DNA of 58,584 bases from Bacteroidales bacterium (lineage in GTDB: Bacteria; Bacteroidota; Bacteroidia; Bacteroidales; UBA932): NCBI GenBank assembly GCA_017519865.1, contig JAFWRQ010000029.1:1-58584 (forward strand). Direction: 5' to 3'. This document shows positions 47,728 through 57,338 of this stretch, piece after piece. The notes below the pieces were generated by a model. The model searched no databases, was not told the DNA's origin, and saw nothing but the letters and a program-made list of their open reading frames with translations. A program made the translations under genes and the position numbers. How positions within the stretch are numbered: the first letter of the stretch is position 1; each line of letters opens with the position of its first letter.

Positions 47728-48654
47728 ATGAAAATGAAAAAACTTCCGCACTTAGTCTTCATCGGCCTTTTCTTGTCGTGTTTCATTTCCTACGCCCAGC
47801 CCAGGGTGCCGGACTATGTCGTGTTCGCAGGCGACACCATCCGTTTCGACCGGGCCGACCTGCGGGAACGGATGGACAGGGAGTTGATAGCCTTCTGCTA
47901 TTCGCACACCAATTCCAAGCTTATGATCAAGCGCGCCAACCGTTATTTCCCGCAGATAGAGCCGCTGCTGAAGGCGGGAGGCGTGCCGGATGACTTGAAG
48001 TACCTGATGGTGATAGAGAGCAACGTAGATCCTAAGGCTGTTTCCTCGGCTGGCGCGGCGGGCTTCTGGCAGTTCATGAAGGAGACTGGCAAGGGCTTCG
48101 GGCTCGTGGTGGACAACGAGGTGGACGAGCGGTACAATCTTGAGAAGGCCACACTTGCGGCGTGCAAGTATTTCAAGCAGGCGAAGGCCAAATACAAGGA
48201 CTGGATGACCGTGGCCGCCAGCTATAATGCCGGGCAGGGGGGAATATCCAAAAGGCTGACTGACCAGCACCAGTCTTCCGCGATGGACCTTTGGCTGGTG
48301 GAGGAGACTTCCAGGTATATGTTCCGCATCCTTGCGGCAAAACTGTATTTCCAGAATCCTGCGGCATTCGGCTTCACTTTTACGCGTGAGGAGTTGTACC
48401 CTTACATCCCTCCGCGCGAGGAAGTCGAGGTCAGCGGGCCGATAGAAGACCTCGCGGCGTTCGCCGAGAAGTACGGGGTGTCATATTTCGACCTTAAGAA
48501 TGCCAATCTGTGGCTGCGCGATTCCAAACTGGTCAACAAGGAACGCAAGACCTATTATATCGCCATCCCTGATGTGGAGGCGGAAAAGTATGATCCTTCA
48601 CAGACCCGGGTCCACAGCATGGCCTGGGTCAGAACCCCACCTATGCTCCCATGA
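47728..48654 (+). CDS. Lytic transglycosylase (SLT domain)
   Basis: Cleaves peptidoglycan glycan strands to 1,6-anhydro products in the periplasm. The 308-residue protein has a signal peptide (MKMKKLPHLVFIGLFLSCFISYAQ; the Cys is not in a clear lipobox). The SLT domain is at about 85-215: the catalytic glutamate is in LMVIESNVDPKAVSSAGAAG, followed by WQFM and ASYNAGQGG. It lacks the LysM repeats of full-length MltD. The stop overlaps the menA start by four bases (ATGA). Confidence 0.92.
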   Translation: MKMKKLPHLVFIGLFLSCFISYAQPRVPDYVVFAGDTIRFDRADLRERMDRELIAFCYSHTNSKLMIKRANRYFPQIEPLLKAGGVPDDLKYLMVIESNVDPKAVSSAGAAGFWQFMKETGKGFGLVVDNEVDERYNLEKATLAACKYFKQAKAKYKDWMTVAASYNAGQGGISKRLTDQHQSSAMDLWLVEETSRYMFRILAAKLYFQNPAAFGFTFTREELYPYIPPREEVEVSGPIEDLAAFAEKYGVSYFDLKNANLWLRDSKLVNKERKTYYIAIPDVEAEKYDPSQTRVHSMAWVRTPPMLP

Positions 48655-49556
48655 CCGTATCTTCCTGTCTTAAATCAATGCGTCTGAGGACGCTTCCGCT
48701 CTCGCTCTCCGGAATAGTGATGGGCGTGCTCCTAGCTGCGGCCGATTACCGCATAGACGCGCTTACCGTTGTTTTCCTGGCGTTGACGACTGTGTGTCTC
48801 CAGATCCTTTCCAACCTGTCCAATGAGCTGGGCGATACACTTCACGGGACTGATACCGATGAGCGCCAGGGCATCCATTATTCCATCCAGGACGGGGAGA
48901 TGACAGTCCCGCAGATGAAAAGGCTGATTGGGGTTGTGGCTGTTTTGTGCTGCGTCTTCGGCCTGCTGATGATCAAGTTTTCCTTCGGGAAGATCTTCGA
49001 CTGGCACCCGATGGCCTTCGTCATCCTGGGCGCTGCGGCCATCTGGGCGGCGATGCACTATACCCTGGGCAAGAACCCTTACGGATACAGGGGGTTAGGG
49101 GATTTGTTCGTATTCCTTTTCTTCGGCATTGCGACGGTGTGCGGAGGCTATTTCCTCTGTGCGCACGAGTTTCCTTCGTGGATTGTCCTGCTGCCCGCGT
49201 CGGCCATCGGCTGCTTCAGCGTCGCTGTGCTGAATGTCAATAACATACGTGACATGCAGACGGACGCCGCCACGAGGGTGACCGTGGCGATGAAGCTGGG
49301 CGGCCGCCGTGCGCGGATTTACCAGACCGTGCTGATAGTCGTTGGATGGGTGTGCATGTTCGTGTATTGCGCACTTAGATTCTTCAGTATCTGGCACTAC
49401 CTGTTCGTGCTGACGCTACCTCTTTTCGTCCTGCACCTCCGCGGGGTATGGACGCGCGACGGCAAGGAACTGGACCCTATGCTTCCGCTCCTGGTGATGA
49501 GTTCCTTTCTGTTCTCGCTTCTTGCAGGAATTGGGTTCGTAGCGTTCCTTTTCTAG
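48651..49556 (+). CDS. menA: 1,4-dihydroxy-2-naphthoate polyprenyltransferase
   Basis: Inner-membrane prenyltransferase of menaquinone synthesis, UbiA superfamily. The 301-residue protein has eight or nine membrane segments. It has both aspartate-rich motifs: NLSNELGDTLHGTDTDE (about 54-70) and NVNNIRDMQTD (about 195-206). MRLRTLPLSLSGIVMG at the N-terminus is typical of MenA. It is convergent with ubiE, the next step of the same pathway; the stops overlap by four bases. Confidence 0.94.
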   Translation: MTVSSCLKSMRLRTLPLSLSGIVMGVLLAAADYRIDALTVVFLALTTVCLQILSNLSNELGDTLHGTDTDERQGIHYSIQDGEMTVPQMKRLIGVVAVLCCVFGLLMIKFSFGKIFDWHPMAFVILGAAAIWAAMHYTLGKNPYGYRGLGDLFVFLFFGIATVCGGYFLCAHEFPSWIVLLPASAIGCFSVAVLNVNNIRDMQTDAATRVTVAMKLGGRRARIYQTVLIVVGWVCMFVYCALRFFSIWHYLFVLTLPLFVLHLRGVWTRDGKELDPMLPLLVMSSFLFSLLAGIGFVAFLF

Positions 49557-50257
49557 GGTTTCACGCCGACATACATACGACAGATGCCGAGGGTGAAGGC
49601 CTTGTGCCTGACCTCGATGTAGCCGCACGCGCGCATCGTCTCCATCCATTCCTGCTTGCCGGGGAAGTTGAGGACGGAGGCGGGCAGGTAGCGGTAGGCG
49701 GCTTTGTCGCCTGAGATCCTGCCGCCTATGAGGGGCAGGATGCCGGTGAAGTAAAGCTTGTAGAACCAGCGGATTACGGGATTGGAGGGGACGGAGAGTT
49801 CGAGGATGACGAGTTTTCCTCCGGGCTTGAGGACGCGGAGGATCTCCTTGAGGGCCTTCTCGCGGTGCTCGAAGTTGCGGATGCCGAATGCGATGGTCGC
49901 GCGGTCGAAGCTGGCGTCCGCGAAGCTCATCGCTTCGCTGTCGCCCTGCCCGCAGCCGACGCGGTCCTCAAGGCCTTCGTCCTTGAGTTTCTCCTTCATC
50001 ACCGCGAGCATCCCTTCCGAGAGGTCCACTCCGGTGACGCGGCTGCCCGGTGACATCCTCCGTGCGATCGCGATGCAGAAATCGCCCGTTCCGCAGGCGA
50101 TGTCGAGGATCTCCTGTACGGCATCTTCCCTGACTATCTCCTTCAGGGCCCTCCGGCGCCAGCTGCGGTCTATTCCCAGCGACATTATGTGGTTCAGACG
50201 GTCGTAATCGGCTGCTATCCCGTCGAACATCTGCTGTATTTTCTCCTTTTTCGGCAT
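49553..50257 (-). CDS. ubiE: Demethylmenaquinone methyltransferase
   Basis: Final methylation in menaquinone synthesis (also called menG), SAM-dependent. From the ATG at 50257 the protein has 234 residues. It shows the family start MPKKEKIQQMFDGIAADYDRLNH in pieces, the SAM loop LDIACGTGDF, GVDLSEGML, and the C-terminal RMYVGVKP. The longer frame to 50275 is rejected because the promoter -7 box lies inside that extension. Its pathway partner menA is encoded on the other strand immediately beyond. Confidence 0.95.
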   Translation of the reverse strand: MPKKEKIQQMFDGIAADYDRLNHIMSLGIDRSWRRRALKEIVREDAVQEILDIACGTGDFCIAIARRMSPGSRVTGVDLSEGMLAVMKEKLKDEGLEDRVGCGQGDSEAMSFADASFDRATIAFGIRNFEHREKALKEILRVLKPGGKLVILELSVPSNPVIRWFYKLYFTGILPLIGGRISGDKAAYRYLPASVLNFPGKQEWMETMRACGYIEVRHKAFTLGICRMYVGVKP

Positions 50258-50270: not shown

Positions 50271-50311
50271 AGCAATTATTGCTTATCTTTAGGAAAAATA
50301 AAACCTTTCCC

Positions 50312-53005
50312 ATGGACAGAAGATCGTTCCCTTTCTTGATGGCGGCAGCCGTCCTGCTGCCTTCCCTTATCCTTGCATGCTGTACCGGAGCCGGCCGCAA
50401 GTCGCTGCCCTGCGACATATACAGGAGCGGCGGCACGCCTTGCGTCGCCGCCCACAGCACGACGCGCCTTCTCGACTCCAAGTACCACGGTCCTCTTTAC
50501 CGCGTGCAGCGCGAGTCGGACGGAATGACCCTGGACATCCGTCCCGACGCTGCAGGCTATTCCGATGCGGCCGCCCAGGACCGCTTCCTGGAGGGAACCC
50601 TCGGCCGCATCACGGTCATCTTCGACCAGTCCGGGATGGGCAACGACCTGGTGCAGGCCTCTCCGGGAACGTTTCTGGGCCCGGAAACGGGAGGCTTCAA
50701 CACCCTGCCGATAGCCGACATGGCTCCGGCATTGCTTGACGGCCACAAGGTTTATGGTGCATACATAATGCCCGGAATGGGCTTTCGCTGCAACAATGCC
50801 AGAGGCCTTGCCATCGACGATGAGCCGGAAGGAATCTACTATGTGATCGACGGCGGACACTATGACAGCGGCTGCTGCTTCGACTACGGCAATTCTTCCA
50901 CCAACGGCAGGGCAGTCGGAACTGGTACCATGGAGACCACCTATTACGGTACTTCCACGGCCTGGGGGCGCGGCAACGGCGACGGCCCGTGGATAATGTC
51001 GGACATGGAAGCCGGTTTGTTCTCGGGTTATGACGCCAAACTCAACGACGTCCCTTCCATAACCGACTGGGACTTCGTGTCGGTTTTCGTGAACGGAGGA
51101 GGCGGCAACAAGTGGGACCTTCGCGGCGGGGATGCGGCAAAGGACTCGCTCGTCACTTTCTACAGCGGACCGCGTCCGCATTCTCCGCAGAGCGATGCAT
51201 ACTATCCGATGCACAAGAAGGGTGGGATGCTGCTCGGCAACGGCGGCGACAACGGCAACGGTTCGGCCGGCACTTTCTTCGAAGGAGTGATGACGTCCGG
51301 TTACCCCACGGACGAGACCATCGCGAAGGTCCAGGGCTCCATAGCAGCGGCCCGTTACCGCAAGTATCCATTGAGCGTTTCACGAATGACTTCATTCGTC
51401 CCTGGTGGAAAGTCTGAGGTGAGCGTTGCGTTCACCAACACTACCGGCAAGCCGGTGAAGGGCCTTTCCTTCTCCGTCGACCTGCCTGATGGATGGAAGG
51501 CCGAATGCGTGAGCGAAGCGGCGTCCGGCGCCGGTGTTTCGGACAATGTGTCCTCCGTATTCAGCGTTACCGCTCCTGAAAGCCGCTCCGCCGGTTTCAT
51601 CCGCTTCAATGCTTCGTGGAAAGGAGGCTCAGTGTCGCTTACCGAGCGTGTGAGGGCGGTGGAGCCTGTGAAAATCAATGAGGTAGGTTTTCCTTCGGCT
51701 TTGGGAAGGACTTCTTTCGTGGAGCTGTACAACGGAGGCCCGGACGATGCGGACCTTTCCGGAGTGGATGTAATAGTACGCAGAAGCGGATGGGCTCCTG
51801 TCAAGGCTTTTACGTTCCCTGACGGGACGATAATGGGTCCAGGGGAGTTCCTCACCCTGGAGCAGAGCGCTTCCGCCGTCACCGCTCCGGCATCGAAAGG
51901 CTCGTCCGAAGTGCACCTCCTGTATGACCTTTCCGTCCTGGACAATATAGAGATCGGAGGTTTCCAGTATGGCATAATCGACAGGGGAACGCCCGCAGGG
52001 GAGTTCACGACCGTGTTCACTCCGGTATCAACAGGCCCGTGGGTGAATATCCCAGCAGGCTCCGAGAGCATCCCTGTCACTTCGACGGCCGGTTTCGTCC
52101 CAGGGGAGGCTATGGGGATAGGCCTTGGAGGTGATTATGAGATAGTTACGGTTACTGAGGTCGGGACTCCATCGACCCAGAGCATCCTTTCCGAGGCTGC
52201 GTCCGCAGGGGCTACCCGGCTTGTGGTGGAGACGACGCGTAGCCTGGTTCCGGGCTCGCTCGTAACAGTCGATACCGGCGACCGCATGGAGGTCGTGACC
52301 GTCAAGGAACTCGTCAGGTCTTCCGACCCTCCGGCACCGCGCCGCTTCGGGCAGCCGCAGCAGGTTCACGAGCCTGGTATCATCGAACTCGAGGAGCCGC
52401 TGAAGAAGGACCATGCGGTCTCCGTGGACGTTTCCTGTCCGGGTTCAGGCATATCCTTCAAGCCGGCAACGCGTTTCTCACATATCAGCGGCGAGTCCGT
52501 GCAGCCACTGGGAGCGCCGTACAAGCTTGACGAGCCCTTTAGGGCTGATGTCCCGGCCTGGGCGCCGGTTGGACTTCCATCGGGACTCTCGGCAGTCAGG
52601 GACCTTCTCCGTGCGCTTGCAGGGCGTTCAGACGATGATTTGCGTTTCGGACTGGGATATGCTCCTTCCAATTCAGCAGGCTCAATCTCTTTGGTCGATC
52701 CTGCCACCGGGGCCGTCCTGGACGCGATAGTCTATGGCTCGCAGCAGAGCAATTCCAGCGCCAACGGGACCATCACCAGCCCTGAACTGGCCACTCTTGA
52801 AGGCGTCCAGGACGGCGGAGGCTGCATTGCGGTTCTCCCGCCGCTCAGACCGTCGTTCGGACCGGGGGGAAGCATCTCTGCTCCAACCTTGTACCGCAGT
52901 CTCGTCCGCTACCCGGATGGATCCGACACCGACAATCTGTGCCGAGACTTCAGGCTCTGCAGCCTGCCGACACCCGGAATGGCAAATACCGTCGAAATGG
53001 AGTAG
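50312..53005 (+). CDS. GH54-type alpha-L-arabinofuranosidase lipoprotein, multidomain
   Basis: An 897-residue predicted surface lipoprotein (signal ending LILAC, Cys at about 23). Residues about 30-355 closely follow the catalytic domain of fungal AbfB: PCDIYRSGGTPCVAAHSTTR, FDQSGMGNDL, the vicinal cysteines in GCCFDYGN (Cys188-Cys189), WIMSDMEAGLFSG with the nucleophile glutamate (Glu233), and GGDNGNGSAGTFFEGVMTSG with the acid/base aspartate (Asp313). The family normally carries a CBM42. Here the rest is a NEW3-like Ig domain (about 365-455) and a lamin-tail-like domain starting VKINEVGF (about 455-570), with related beta-rich sequence to the end. Start ATG 50312 gives a proper lipoprotein signal. 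It stands alone. Confidence 0.9.
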   Translation: MDRRSFPFLMAAAVLLPSLILACCTGAGRKSLPCDIYRSGGTPCVAAHSTTRLLDSKYHGPLYRVQRESDGMTLDIRPDAAGYSDAAAQDRFLEGTLGRITVIFDQSGMGNDLVQASPGTFLGPETGGFNTLPIADMAPALLDGHKVYGAYIMPGMGFRCNNARGLAIDDEPEGIYYVIDGGHYDSGCCFDYGNSSTNGRAVGTGTMETTYYGTSTAWGRGNGDGPWIMSDMEAGLFSGYDAKLNDVPSITDWDFVSVFVNGGGGNKWDLRGGDAAKDSLVTFYSGPRPHSPQSDAYYPMHKKGGMLLGNGGDNGNGSAGTFFEGVMTSGYPTDETIAKVQGSIAAARYRKYPLSVSRMTSFVPGGKSEVSVAFTNTTGKPVKGLSFSVDLPDGWKAECVSEAASGAGVSDNVSSVFSVTAPESRSAGFIRFNASWKGGSVSLTERVRAVEPVKINEVGFPSALGRTSFVELYNGGPDDADLSGVDVIVRRSGWAPVKAFTFPDGTIMGPGEFLTLEQSASAVTAPASKGSSEVHLLYDLSVLDNIEIGGFQYGIIDRGTPAGEFTTVFTPVSTGPWVNIPAGSESIPVTSTAGFVPGEAMGIGLGGDYEIVTVTEVGTPSTQSILSEAASAGATRLVVETTRSLVPGSLVTVDTGDRMEVVTVKELVRSSDPPAPRRFGQPQQVHEPGIIELEEPLKKDHAVSVDVSCPGSGISFKPATRFSHISGESVQPLGAPYKLDEPFRADVPAWAPVGLPSGLSAVRDLLRALAGRSDDDLRFGLGYAPSNSAGSISLVDPATGAVLDAIVYGSQQSNSSANGTITSPELATLEGVQDGGGCIAVLPPLRPSFGPGGSISAPTLYRSLVRYPDGSDTDNLCRDFRLCSLPTPGMANTVEME

Positions 53006-53010
53006 GGGAT

Positions 53011-53751
53011 TCAGGACACGAGGGAGCGTGACTGAAGCCAGGCGTCGAATGCCGGCCTGAAGGATTCGGAGACGTGGATGAATGCGCCTCCAATGCTGAT
53101 GTCACATCCGGCGGAGACTGTGTCTATGCGGTCCAGGGCGACTATATAGGACCGGTGGACCCGCATGAATCCTTCTGCGGGGAGCAGGTCCTCCAGCGCC
53201 TTCATCGTTATGTGGGTCAAAAGGGTCTGCCCTTCGGAGAGATGGATGCGAACATAGTCCTTCATCCCCTCGAAATACAGGATATCCCTCAGGAATACCT
53301 TCTGCATGCCTGCATCGGTCTTGATGAAGATGGATTTGTCCGCAGGCGGGACCGGCGGCAGCGGCTGGGTGGCTGCGGCAGCAGCCTCCACCAGCCCGAA
53401 CAGCCGCTGCGCTTTCTCCGCTGCCTCCAGGAACTTCTGGTAGCGCACGGGCTTGAGAAGGAAGTCCACAGCAGACACCTCATAACTCTCGAAGGCGTAT
53501 TGCTTGAATGCCGTGGTGAATATGATGCGCGTCCCTTCCGGGACCATGTGCGAAAGCTCCAGCCCGCTGAGGTCGGGCATCTGTATGTCCATGAAAACCA
53601 GTTCCGGACGGCGGCTGCGGATCTCGGACAGTGCCTGCACCGGGTCCGTGAATGATGCCTCCAGCGTCAGGAACGGGGTCCTGGCGATGTAGTTCTCTAT
53701 CATCCTGACGGCCAGCGGCTCGTCGTCCACCACTATGCATCTGAGTTTCAT
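53011..53751 (-). CDS. LytTR-family response regulator
   Basis: A 246-residue cytoplasmic regulator: receiver domain at 1-120 with acidic pocket VVDDEP (Asp9-Asp10), phospho-acceptor Asp55 in FMDIQMPD, and lysine in LLKPVRY. An Ala/Pro linker follows, then a LytTR DNA-binding domain (about 145-240, IFIKTD, YFEGMKDYVRIHL, RVHRSYIVAL). It overlaps the end of the kinase gene by four bases (ATGA) and ends five bases from the convergent GH54-type gene. Confidence 0.95.
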   Translation of the reverse strand: MKLRCIVVDDEPLAVRMIENYIARTPFLTLEASFTDPVQALSEIRSRRPELVFMDIQMPDLSGLELSHMVPEGTRIIFTTAFKQYAFESYEVSAVDFLLKPVRYQKFLEAAEKAQRLFGLVEAAAAATQPLPPVPPADKSIFIKTDAGMQKVFLRDILYFEGMKDYVRIHLSEGQTLLTHITMKALEDLLPAEGFMRVHRSYIVALDRIDTVSAGCDISIGGAFIHVSESFRPAFDAWLQSRSLVS

Positions 53752-54818
53752 GACAGGATGTCTTTAAGCCTGACCGTAGCGCTGTAGACCCGGCCGTCGT
53801 TTACCGCATTGTATTCGAATGCATCGGGATAGAGGAGTTCGAGCCGGCGCTGGAGGTTCTCCACCCCGATACCGGAGCCTATATGGTCGGTACCGGCCTT
53901 CTCGAAGACGGAGTTCTTACAGGTGAATACGAGGTCCCTATCCTCCCCGCGCATGGCTATCTTGACGAAGGAAGGGTAGCGGGCGTTTACCCCATGTTTG
54001 AAAGCGTTCTCTATCAAGGAGATGAAGAGGAGCGGAGCCACCCTCGCGTCGCCGGCCTGGATAGAGAAGTCTTTTTCGACAGTGGTCATCTCGTTGCAGC
54101 GCAGCGACATCAGGCCGATGTAGTTGTCCATGAAGTCGATCTCGCCGGCGAGCGGAACCAGGTCCTTGTCGCTGTCGTACAATGCGTAGCGGAGCAGGTC
54201 GCTCAGCTGGCCTATGCTTTCCTGGGCCTTGTCCGGGTCGATCTGGGTCAGCGAGGAAATGTTGTTGAGCGTGTTGAACAGGAAATGCGGGTTCAGCTGG
54301 CTCTTGAGCCAGGTCAGCTCGGCCTCGGCGCTTTTGCGCTTCTCTTCCTCGATCTTGACCTTAAGGTCATAGTTGCGTTTTATCTGCCTTACACCTACGG
54401 CGAGCAGGATGAACACGCATTGGACGACAATGGCGACGAAGGTCACACCTGCGTACAGGGCCCACAAGTCGTTGACGGTGAAGGGCAGCGACTCAAAGAC
54501 CTGCGCCTGCTCTTCTTCAGACAATGGCTCGGGGAAAAGCAGCCGGATATTGAGCAGCAGGATGAGACCGGCATTGATGAGGTAGAACCATTTCTTGCGT
54601 CCCTCCACGAACAGGTATTTGGGTACGAGCCAGAGATAATTCACCAGGTATAGGAATAGGACCGGAGCCATTGTCCTCAGTGTCTGGAGGAACACTTTGT
54701 AGGCGTTGGCGGAGTTGCCGGCTATGTACCAGCTGAGCGCAGCGGGCATCAATATGACTATGGTCCATACCAGGACCTGCGTCACATTGAGGATGTTGAT
54801 ATGCCTGTCTTTACCCAT
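53748..54818 (-). CDS. LytS/YehU-type sensor histidine kinase
   Basis: A 356-residue membrane kinase with four predicted membrane segments (about 10-33, 45-66, 76-95, 118-142). A coiled linker follows, then the His_kinase domain with LKSQLNPHFLFNTLNNIS (His178) and an ATPase domain containing PLLFISLIENAFKHG and GSGIGVENLQRRL. There is no large periplasmic sensor. It pairs with the LytTR regulator encoded next and begins 24 bases after the outer-membrane barrel gene, so the three genes form one operon. Confidence 0.95.
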   Translation of the reverse strand: MGKDRHINILNVTQVLVWTIVILMPAALSWYIAGNSANAYKVFLQTLRTMAPVLFLYLVNYLWLVPKYLFVEGRKKWFYLINAGLILLLNIRLLFPEPLSEEEQAQVFESLPFTVNDLWALYAGVTFVAIVVQCVFILLAVGVRQIKRNYDLKVKIEEEKRKSAEAELTWLKSQLNPHFLFNTLNNISSLTQIDPDKAQESIGQLSDLLRYALYDSDKDLVPLAGEIDFMDNYIGLMSLRCNEMTTVEKDFSIQAGDARVAPLLFISLIENAFKHGVNARYPSFVKIAMRGEDRDLVFTCKNSVFEKAGTDHIGSGIGVENLQRRLELLYPDAFEYNAVNDGRVYSATVRLKDILS

Positions 54819-54842
54819 TTCTACAAAGATAATTATTTCTTT

Positions 54843-57338
54843 TTACATTCCCGTAGGGAGCGAAGTAGATGTGCCGGTTCCGCCGAGGGCGCCGCTTCCG
54901 CTGAGCGCTTCCGCAGTGCTTTGGGTATTGATCACGTCGTCGTTGGTGATGGTCTTGCGGGTCTTCTTGACGCCGAAGTTACCCTGCTTGCCAAACGTCC
55001 AGCTGATGCTGAGGGAAGCCTGGCGGATAGGAACCGCGATGGACATGTCGCTGGTGAACTCCCTGGTCTCCGAATGGGACTTGATGGCAAGGCTTCCTGA
55101 GTCTAAAGGGGAGATGATGGAAAGGCTGGCGCTCAGACGGTCGTCAAGGAAGGTCTTGGTCAATCCGAGGGTTCCGAGACTTATGCCCGTGCTCCATCCC
55201 TGGAGATCCTTCGTCCTGCTCATCAGGATGGCGTTGGCGCTGAAGCGGAGGTCCCAGGGCAGGGTCTGCTGGAACCCCAGCAAACCGTTGCCGCTCCAAC
55301 CGCTGTTCTGCTGGCCAAGGACGTCGCTCCTGAGATCGGAGTAGTCTATTCCTCCATTCAGGATAATGCGCGTTTTGGCCCCTGCGTTGACCATCACGAA
55401 GGCGTTGAGTCCTGCGGTAGCGGATTCTATGATGTTGCCGTAGGTCGAGTGCAGGACATTGTCCTGATAGAAGCTGTATGGAGAGATGCCGTTGCCTGTG
55501 AAACCATAGCGCGCGGTCAGGTTAAGCATGAATTTGGTGGTGAAGTAGTTGTATACGAGATTGACGTTGTGCGCCTTCTCCACCTCGAGGTCTGGATTGC
55601 CATAGTTGAGGGCTGTCGGGTCGGAATCGTCACGGTAGGGATTGAGATAAGTGATGCCCGGGCGGCTGATACGCATATTGTAGCTCAGGCCGATGTTGGA
55701 TTTCATTCCCAGATTCAGTTGGAGCGTGGCTGAAGGTACAAGGCATCCATAGTCGGTCCGGAATGCTTTGCCGCCGTCCTGCGAGTAGTTCTGCCAGGTG
55801 TGTTCGTAGCGGGCGCCAGCCTTTATTCCTATAAGGCCGAAATTGACTGACATCTCGGTGTATGCTGCACCGATGCGGTTGTAATAGTCGTAATTGGTAC
55901 TGCCGGGCTCGTTGAAGTCCCAGCCGCTGCCGTTCCAAAGGTAATTCATCTGGTCCGAGAGATTGTGGCGCGAGATGTATTTGACTCCGGTGGAGAGGGT
56001 GCCGATACCATCGACGGGGGTTGTGAAGTCAGCCTGTACGGTGTGGTCTATGGAGTTGGTCTTGCCATCGGTCCTGCGGTCGGTGAGATCCAGCATCGTA
56101 ATGCCGGTATTGCCGAAAAGATTCTTGCTGTCAGTGGTGGAAGGGCTGGCCGAGAACAGATAGGAAAGGACGAAACTGCGGTTGGGACGGCCGGCCCAAA
56201 GATGCTGATAGTCCGCACTGGCAGTAATGGAAGCGGTGTTTCCCTTCGACCAGGTGTCGGTGGTATAGCTGAATCCTGTACCGCCGAATCCCAGTGTGGT
56301 GAGTCCGGTATTGTCGCTTGTCGACCCCAGGCCCATGAGGCCTCCAGTCGCTGAAATGAGGTTGAGGCTGTCGATTTCATAACTGATATTTAGGTTGCCC
56401 AGGGCTATGGGATTCTTCATGGTACCCTCGCTGTGCATCGAAGTGGTCATCCCTGCGGTGGTCGAACGTTCTACGTCGATGGTGGTTCCAGGGCTGTTGT
56501 TCAGCATAGCGTTTCCAGTGAGGCTCATCGCGAACTTGCCTTTTTGCTGACTGTAGAAGATGCCGGCTCCGCCGCCGCGGGTGGAGGCTTGCGCCGTGAT
56601 GGTGCCGTAGGCTCCCTCAGCGGCGCTCACTCCGCCCGTGACCTCGCGGTTGGTGGTGATCTGGAGGACGCCTCCGACTCCCTCCGCATCATAGCGGACG
56701 CCCGGGTTGGTGACGACCGAGATATCCTTGACCGCGCTGGCGGGCATCATCTTGAAGACGACGGAAGGGTTGGAAGAGATCATCTGGTTGGGCTTTCCGT
56801 CCACATAGACCTGGAATGAGGAGCTGCCGTTTACCGTGATATTGTCCTGCCCGTCCACGGATACCATGGGGACCTTGCGCAGCATGTCCAGCACGGTGCT
56901 GGTCTTGGAGTCGACGTCATTTGCCACGTCATAGGTCATCTTGTCCACGTCCATCTTTACCAGAGGGCGCTGGGCCGTTACAGTTCCGGCCTTCAGGGTC
57001 TGGACGTCGTCCTGAACGAGGATCATGCCGAGATCGATGGTCGAAACGGTACCGTCAAGGGTGAAGTCCCGCGTGAGCGTCTTGCGGCCCATATTGCTGA
57101 ATACCATTCTGTAATTTCCCTTCTCTGAGAGCGTCTGGGAGAACTTCCCGTCAGTGTCGGTGGTGGTGAATGCTACCGGCTTGTCAAAATCGGGGGCTTT
57201 GAAGAACTGTATGATCGCAGCCGGTTCGCCGTCGCGGGAAAGCGAGTCCAGAACGGCGCCAGTGACGACAGCTTGTTGCGCAAATGCAGCGGTTCCGAAA
57301 AGGAGAGCGATGAGGGTTGCGGTGATTATCTTTTTCAT
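54843..57338 (-). CDS. TonB-receptor-like outer-membrane beta-barrel protein
   Basis: An 831-residue outer-membrane protein of the OMP_b-brl_3 type. The signal peptide is MKKIITATLIALLFGTAAFA. Residues about 25-115 are a carboxypeptidase-regulatory-like domain. Residues about 120-240 are a plug-like domain (DKMTYDVANDVDSKTSTVLDMLRKVPMVSVDG in pieces, then GVGGVLQITTNR). The rest is a barrel. Unlike classical TonB receptors, the C-terminus extends past the last strand (GGTGTSTSLPTGM), as is common in this group. Ligand unknown. It is first in an operon with a LytS-type kinase and LytTR regulator. Confidence 0.88.
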   Translation of the reverse strand: MKKIITATLIALLFGTAAFAQQAVVTGAVLDSLSRDGEPAAIIQFFKAPDFDKPVAFTTTDTDGKFSQTLSEKGNYRMVFSNMGRKTLTRDFTLDGTVSTIDLGMILVQDDVQTLKAGTVTAQRPLVKMDVDKMTYDVANDVDSKTSTVLDMLRKVPMVSVDGQDNITVNGSSSFQVYVDGKPNQMISSNPSVVFKMMPASAVKDISVVTNPGVRYDAEGVGGVLQITTNREVTGGVSAAEGAYGTITAQASTRGGGAGIFYSQQKGKFAMSLTGNAMLNNSPGTTIDVERSTTAGMTTSMHSEGTMKNPIALGNLNISYEIDSLNLISATGGLMGLGSTSDNTGLTTLGFGGTGFSYTTDTWSKGNTASITASADYQHLWAGRPNRSFVLSYLFSASPSTTDSKNLFGNTGITMLDLTDRRTDGKTNSIDHTVQADFTTPVDGIGTLSTGVKYISRHNLSDQMNYLWNGSGWDFNEPGSTNYDYYNRIGAAYTEMSVNFGLIGIKAGARYEHTWQNYSQDGGKAFRTDYGCLVPSATLQLNLGMKSNIGLSYNMRISRPGITYLNPYRDDSDPTALNYGNPDLEVEKAHNVNLVYNYFTTKFMLNLTARYGFTGNGISPYSFYQDNVLHSTYGNIIESATAGLNAFVMVNAGAKTRIILNGGIDYSDLRSDVLGQQNSGWSGNGLLGFQQTLPWDLRFSANAILMSRTKDLQGWSTGISLGTLGLTKTFLDDRLSASLSIISPLDSGSLAIKSHSETREFTSDMSIAVPIRQASLSISWTFGKQGNFGVKKTRKTITNDDVINTQSTAEALSGSGALGGTGTSTSLPTGM

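Follow-up and report, generated by a model that had tools for sequence, protein, structure and literature searches.

A gene in the 58,584-nucleotide stretch of Bacteroidales DNA analysed here (the window) encodes a protein that, judged by its sequence, would be a retaining alpha-L-arabinofuranosidase of family GH54, for which the VKOR-thioredoxin fusion encoded behind its paralogue, GH54-B, would serve as a maturation factor; we give this reading a probability of about 0.6. Homology, active-site residues, clade membership, gene linkage and co-occurrence are the observations on which it is built, and from these we infer enzymatic activity, substrate, disulfide transfer and the role of the window protein (GH54-A) as a client. 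The gene is a member of an old bacterial branch of GH54, an enzyme family that has been studied mostly in fungi; this branch is clade A of a set of two paralogues, and the domain set of its product is widespread in bacteria and already known.

Domains and active site of the window protein

The features of the gene and its neighbours, with positions in the window, are as follows.

48651..49556, + strand: neighbouring gene, UbiA prenyltransferase family (menA-like)
49553..50257, - strand: neighbouring gene, UbiE/COQ5 methyltransferase
50312..53005, + strand: GH54 clade-A gene, 897 aa
50312..50383, + strand: N-terminal hydrophobic stretch ending in lipobox-like LILACC (residues 1-24)
50408..51358, + strand: GH54 catalytic domain (residues 33-349)
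50873..50878, + strand: vicinal Cys188-Cys189 (AkAbfB C176-C177), by alignment
51008..51010, + strand: nucleophile Glu233 (AkAbfB E221), by alignment
51248..51250, + strand: acid/base Asp313 (AkAbfB D297), by alignment
51401..51595, + strand: NEW3 / NPCBM_assoc Ig-like domain (residues 364-428)
51656..51910, + strand: lamin-tail domain, first part (residues 449-533)
51920..52642, + strand: probable insertion of some 240 residues (about 537-777) within the lamin-tail domain, limits approximate
52679..52738, + strand: probable final strands of the interrupted lamin-tail domain (near residues 790-809), limits approximate
53011..53751, - strand: neighbouring gene, LytTR response regulator, with its histidine kinase at 53748-54818

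The profile search gave a PF09206 match of 390 bits (cut-off 25), and the catalytic domain has the fold of that of Aspergillus kawachii AbfB (AkAbfB; GH54; PDB 1wd3, 6sxt), with which it has the nucleophile, the acid/base and the vicinal cysteines in common. The family assignment of the original prediction thus stands, as do the residues it had named: C188-C189 aligns with AkAbfB C176-C177, and E233 and D313 align with E221 and D297, the nucleophile and the acid/base of the fungal enzyme. Ala234, next after Glu233, stands for AkAbfB Asn222. The vicinal cysteines, the Asp and Glu of DxE, and GD are kept in all 130 distinct catalytic domains that were aligned (129 bacterial ones and AkAbfB). In the proposed mechanism, Glu233 would attack the sugar and Asp313 would protonate, with the Cys188-Cys189 disulfide acting as a platform for the sugar ring. 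A contact of this type is on record for the AkAbfB structure 1wd4, where the vicinal disulfide touches the arabinofuranose ring (PMC12102755). Such a disulfide platform would in turn require an oxidant.

Behind the catalytic domain, the window protein differs from AkAbfB in having a NEW3 domain and a split lamin-tail domain and no CBM42. Both of these domains, as well as the absence of CBM42, had been foreseen, and a Pfam scan bears this out, with no match in the protein to CBM42 (AbfB, PF05270) or to RICIN. The insertion in the lamin-tail domain is without a Pfam name and shows, by eye, two similar beta units. Known structures with alignable parts are BT_1938 (DUF4876, PDB 4q1z; 164 residues) and the lamin A/C tail (1ifr; 101 residues), and we propose that the NEW3 and split lamin-tail modules are beta-sandwich spacers or docking domains. 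The suggestion that this architecture is a novel re-tooling of the enzyme is not supported, since bacterial GH54 proteins with ArabFuran-catal, RICIN, LTD and NPCBM_assoc domains have already been published as the 'Bacterium I' group (PMC8155123). The window protein shares the catalytic domain, LTD and NEW3 with this group and has no match to its RICIN domain; the groups in the relevant part of that paper are from Acidobacteria, Verrucomicrobia, Proteobacteria and Actinobacteria, with Bacteroidota not named, and VKOR is not mentioned in that part. GH54 has also been described in Fibrobacter succinogenes (PMC4704652).

The N-terminus, with a helix at residues 5-23 in the predicted structure and a lipobox-like LILAC-C recognised by eye, suggests that the protein is probably secreted and lipid-anchored. 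Display at the cell surface, as originally claimed, is not supported: the surface-export motif of Bacteroidota given in PMC5080379 is K-(D/E)2 or Q-A-(D/E)2 after the lipobox cysteine, and this acidic motif is absent from the window protein, where the residues from that cysteine on are CTGAGRKSL. On the opposite strand, an open frame of 312 aa (50276-51214, - strand) overlaps the GH54 gene and is probably a by-product of GC-rich third positions.

Paralogues A and B and the origin of bacterial GH54

A scan of 84,980 species genomes yielded 78 loci, most of which match the query over nearly the whole length and whose record titles name Bacteroidales, Flavobacteriales, Mucilaginibacter, Saprospiraceae, Acidobacteriota, Micromonospora, Planctomycetota, Opitutae and Lentisphaerae. 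Near-full-length relatives are present in Bacteroidota, Acidobacteriota, Actinomycetota, Planctomycetota and Verrucomicrobiota/Lentisphaerae. GH54 catalytic, LTD and NEW3 matches were found in all eight proteins scanned (seven relatives and the B paralogue of the same genome), the NEW3 match being under its cut-off in two of them (L095 B, L074), and CBM42 (PF05270) occurred in one, the Micromonospora B paralogue (L095). In genome samples that each include their centre genome, positive by prior knowledge, and that contain many incomplete MAGs, the counts of genomes with PF09206 above cut-off were 23 of 200 for the genus, 4 of 295 for the order (three full length), 5 of 296 for the phylum (one full length, the genome of the window itself), 4 of 198 for Actinomycetota, 6 of 199 for Acidobacteriota (one a short piece) and 3 of 194 for Verrucomicrobiota (one partial). 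Matches of 28-39 bits to the first third of PF09206, in frames of 1291-3521 aa (L110-L113, L148, L151), resemble lectin-type beta-sandwich domains more than GH54, judged by their place in the profile.

The tree comprises 73 sequences of at most 88% mutual identity, chosen from the 130 distinct catalytic domains. Clade A (38 sequences, support 100/99) holds the window gene deep inside, clade B contains 22 sequences (100/100), and the two together are supported at 100/99. AkAbfB, the one fungal sequence in this unrooted tree, groups with three actinobacterial enzymes (99/83), and AU tests reject placing it with the window gene (p-AU 2e-111), with clade A (1.3e-4) or with clade B (1.6e-4). Genomes of the genus sample carry A in 17 cases, B in 21 and both in 15; in the genome of the window, A lies on the window contig (C25) and B on another (C20). 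Elsewhere the two are found side by side, divergently oriented in L038, L041 and L053 and in the order B-VKOR-A in L033, L078, L096 and L103. At one locus, both appear as broken frames in a MAG contig (L104:4459-9319).

The cysteines are conserved to different degrees. Among 63 sequences typed as B by their motif, four pairs are kept at 89-100%: 40/50 (89%), 105/110 (98-100%), the vicinal pair 200/201 (100%) and 251/261 (98%). In 90 clade-A sequences the vicinal pair is always kept, pair 34/44 in 82-89% and pair 93/98 in 72-74%. Residues 93 and 98 of the window protein (50588-50605) are Leu and Gly instead; the loss of this pair is a further difference from AkAbfB.

The original prediction suggested an inter-domain transfer, considered here as a recent transfer of a fungal AbfB gene into rumen Bacteroidota. 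The identity of the window protein to AkAbfB (50-55%) is indeed about as high as that to bacterial clade B (50-56%), but it reaches 62-90% with the aligned clade-A relatives, and both the tree and the AU tests speak against such an event, as do the near-full-length relatives across bacterial phyla and the bacterial C-terminal modules common to several phyla. The GC content of the gene (0.603) also falls inside the range of 0.465-0.607 of the nine neighbours examined, and we regard a recent fungal origin as extremely improbable. An ancient transfer between bacteria and fungi, in either direction, is compatible with a tree that is unrooted and has one fungal member. A change of substrate or activity in clade A, which might then act on other furanosides or linkages than B, can further be envisaged and would explain why both are retained. 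The motif after the catalytic-site Asp, which is MEAG-like in clade A, QENN in clade B and MENN in the fungal enzyme, sets A apart from the other two; the residue after the nucleophile is Asn in the fungal enzyme and clade B, and Ala, Ser, Gly or Val in clade A. Moreover, A and B are found together in 15 of the 23 genus genomes with GH54. Nevertheless, the catalytic residues examined are all kept and the motif loop has a pLDDT below 50 in the predicted structure, so a functional shift of this kind appears rather doubtful to us.

The VKOR-thioredoxin gene behind GH54-B

Neighbour clustering and Pfam matches identified a VKOR-thioredoxin fusion as the recurrent neighbour of clade B. In the genome of the window it directly follows B on the same strand (G000:C20), with an overlap of about 38 bases between the stop-to-stop frames, and is itself followed by a GH43 gene; behind that gene lies a 684-aa frame (L162:14539-16590) to which no Pfam or NCBIfam name could be given. 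When at least 1.2 kb of downstream sequence is required, 40 distinct B-typed genes are left, and VKOR comes immediately after 28 of them. The carriers include Bacteroidota (L071, L078, L096), Sedimentisphaerales (L103, L194), Phycisphaerae (L196) and Opitutae (L195), so that the adjacency spans Bacteroidota, Planctomycetota and Verrucomicrobiota. A case from Lentisphaerae (L193) was left out of the 40, its downstream sequence being too short. The 12 genes without adjacent VKOR include those of Micromonospora, second copies, and an actinobacterial enzyme (L134) that was mis-typed by motif and is not a true clade-B member. The pair is also carried by Mucilaginibacter (L198), an aerobic organism. 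Distances between B proteins and between their VKOR partners are correlated (r 0.93, 0 of 2000 permutations, 29 pairs).

The VKOR protein from the genome of the window matches PF07884 with 43.8 bits (cut-off 27.5). Every member of a set of 36 such proteins has C53/C59, C136/C139, C228/C231 and C262/C277; neither cysteine pair of the VKOR domain varies, nor does the CxxC of the thioredoxin domain. The thioredoxin/DsbA domain scored 20 bits in the protein from this genome, below the cut-off of 23.2, and 26.1 in its L078 homologue, for which VKORC1/thioredoxin and DsbA-like proteins are the PDB relatives. The arrangement of VKOR cysteine pairs followed by a thioredoxin-fold CxxC domain is that of the cyanobacterial VKORC1/thioredoxin fusion in PDB entries 3kp9, 4nv2 and 4nv6; the protein described here differs in that DsbA-like proteins (3gyk, 4xvw) are the closest relatives of its second domain and in being encoded directly behind a GH54 gene. 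At three loci (L187:1968-3152, L207:9622-10749, L184:7290-8444), a VKOR-thioredoxin gene is located beside or near a carboxylesterase gene (PF00135) and not GH54. Since some copies adjoin such genes, the helper is not restricted to GH54, and the carboxylesterases may be another disulfide-dependent client.

Within the genus sample of 200 genomes, which includes that of the window, VKOR was detected in 20 of the 21 genomes with B and in 1 of the 179 others (Fisher p 3e-25, a value that takes no account of kinship); the one VKOR-positive genome without GH54, G158, gave a marginal match (27.8 bits, cut-off 27.5). VKOR is directly behind B in 15 of the 21. As for the others, the contig ends inside B in G015, in G176 and G169 the VKOR gene is found at a contig end or close to one, and VKOR is away from B in G036, G069 and G148, adjoining carboxylesterase genes in the latter two; the two neighbours scanned in G036 had no Pfam name. 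Two genomes that carry A alone (G064, G139) gave no VKOR match above the cut-off, and their A proteins keep the CC pair, so that A does not strictly need VKOR. VKOR occurs in 15 of the 295 genomes sampled from the order, and all three with full-length GH54 are among them. Seven VKORs from six of the other 12, the rest failing the similarity entry test for the tree, split from the GH54-linked type at 100/100. As defined by a profile derived from the neighbour set, this type was seen only in GH54 genomes in the genus and order samples. VKOR is present in 19 of 25 GH54 genomes chosen from several phyla; the other six, including Micromonospora, gave no match. Among 81 genomes of the genus, DsbB exceeded its cut-off in one, and then marginally (22.8 bits, cut-off 22.1). 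Thus, of the two de novo oxidants sought in the genus (DsbB in 81 genomes, VKOR in 200), it is VKOR that accompanies GH54. The co-occurrence within the genus may partly be due to shared ancestry, and the adjacency seen in other phyla carries more weight.

VKOR is proposed as a maturation factor because the GH54 active site contains a disulfide that contacts the sugar. The membrane-bound VKOR, fused to a DsbA-like thioredoxin, would make disulfides de novo and pass them via its thioredoxin domain to GH54 proteins, to B above all and probably to A as well, a route that would operate in organisms without DsbB. Against this, the window gene is not beside VKOR, the aerobic Mucilaginibacter has the pair too, and the fusion could be a general envelope disulfide catalyst that merely shares a cluster with GH54-B, with GH54 needing no dedicated partner. 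The copies beside carboxylesterases, the two A-only genomes and the 12 of 40 B-typed genes without adjacent VKOR would fit such a role. The same-strand adjacency across several phyla would not, and neither would the confinement of VKOR in the genus sample to GH54 genomes save one marginal match, nor the well-supported branch that places the GH54-linked fusion far from the seven other Bacteroidales VKORs. A general catalyst is therefore a possibility to be kept in mind, to which we give limited credence.

The pair of GH54-B and VKOR-thioredoxin, often with GH54-A, might be a portable cassette that allows DsbB-less bacteria to use an enzyme with a disulfide for its sugar-binding site; the odds on this seem to us about even. 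CAZyme loci are commonly interpreted as sets of enzymes and transporters, and a conserved enzyme and maturation-factor pair that crosses phyla would help to explain why some cysteine-rich enzymes are so patchily distributed in bacteria. It would also open a practical way of obtaining active GH54 from heterologous hosts, and make disulfide formation in such enzymes by DsbB-less bacteria directly testable. A literature search combining VKOR, Bacteroides and disulfide bond formation returned no paper.

Gene neighbourhood and substrate

That no arabinan or xylan genes adjoin the window gene, as had been stated, agrees with our scan, in which none of ten window genes encoded a CAZyme, SusC or SusD. 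The upstream UbiA gene was not found at the other GH54 loci examined, many of which have short flanks. Downstream, the LytTR response regulator, its histidine kinase and an outer-membrane beta-barrel protein follow in series (53011-57338, - strand). At other loci, genes near A or B encode a GH51 enzyme fused to an acetylesterase-like domain, GH43, GH127, GH97, GH3 and GH95, as well as esterases, SusC and SusD; beside clade A, SusC and SusD occur in L042 and SusD in L058. Because of these genes, the substrate is inferred to be of the arabinoxylan or arabinan type, with the arabinose side chains as the target. In several rumen relatives, the gene just upstream of clade A encodes a fusion of a GH51 arabinofuranosidase with an acetylesterase-like SASA domain (L051:4917-7967, the one locus for which the fusion was run against Pfam), and the same fusion precedes clade A in L040, L049, L056 and L059.
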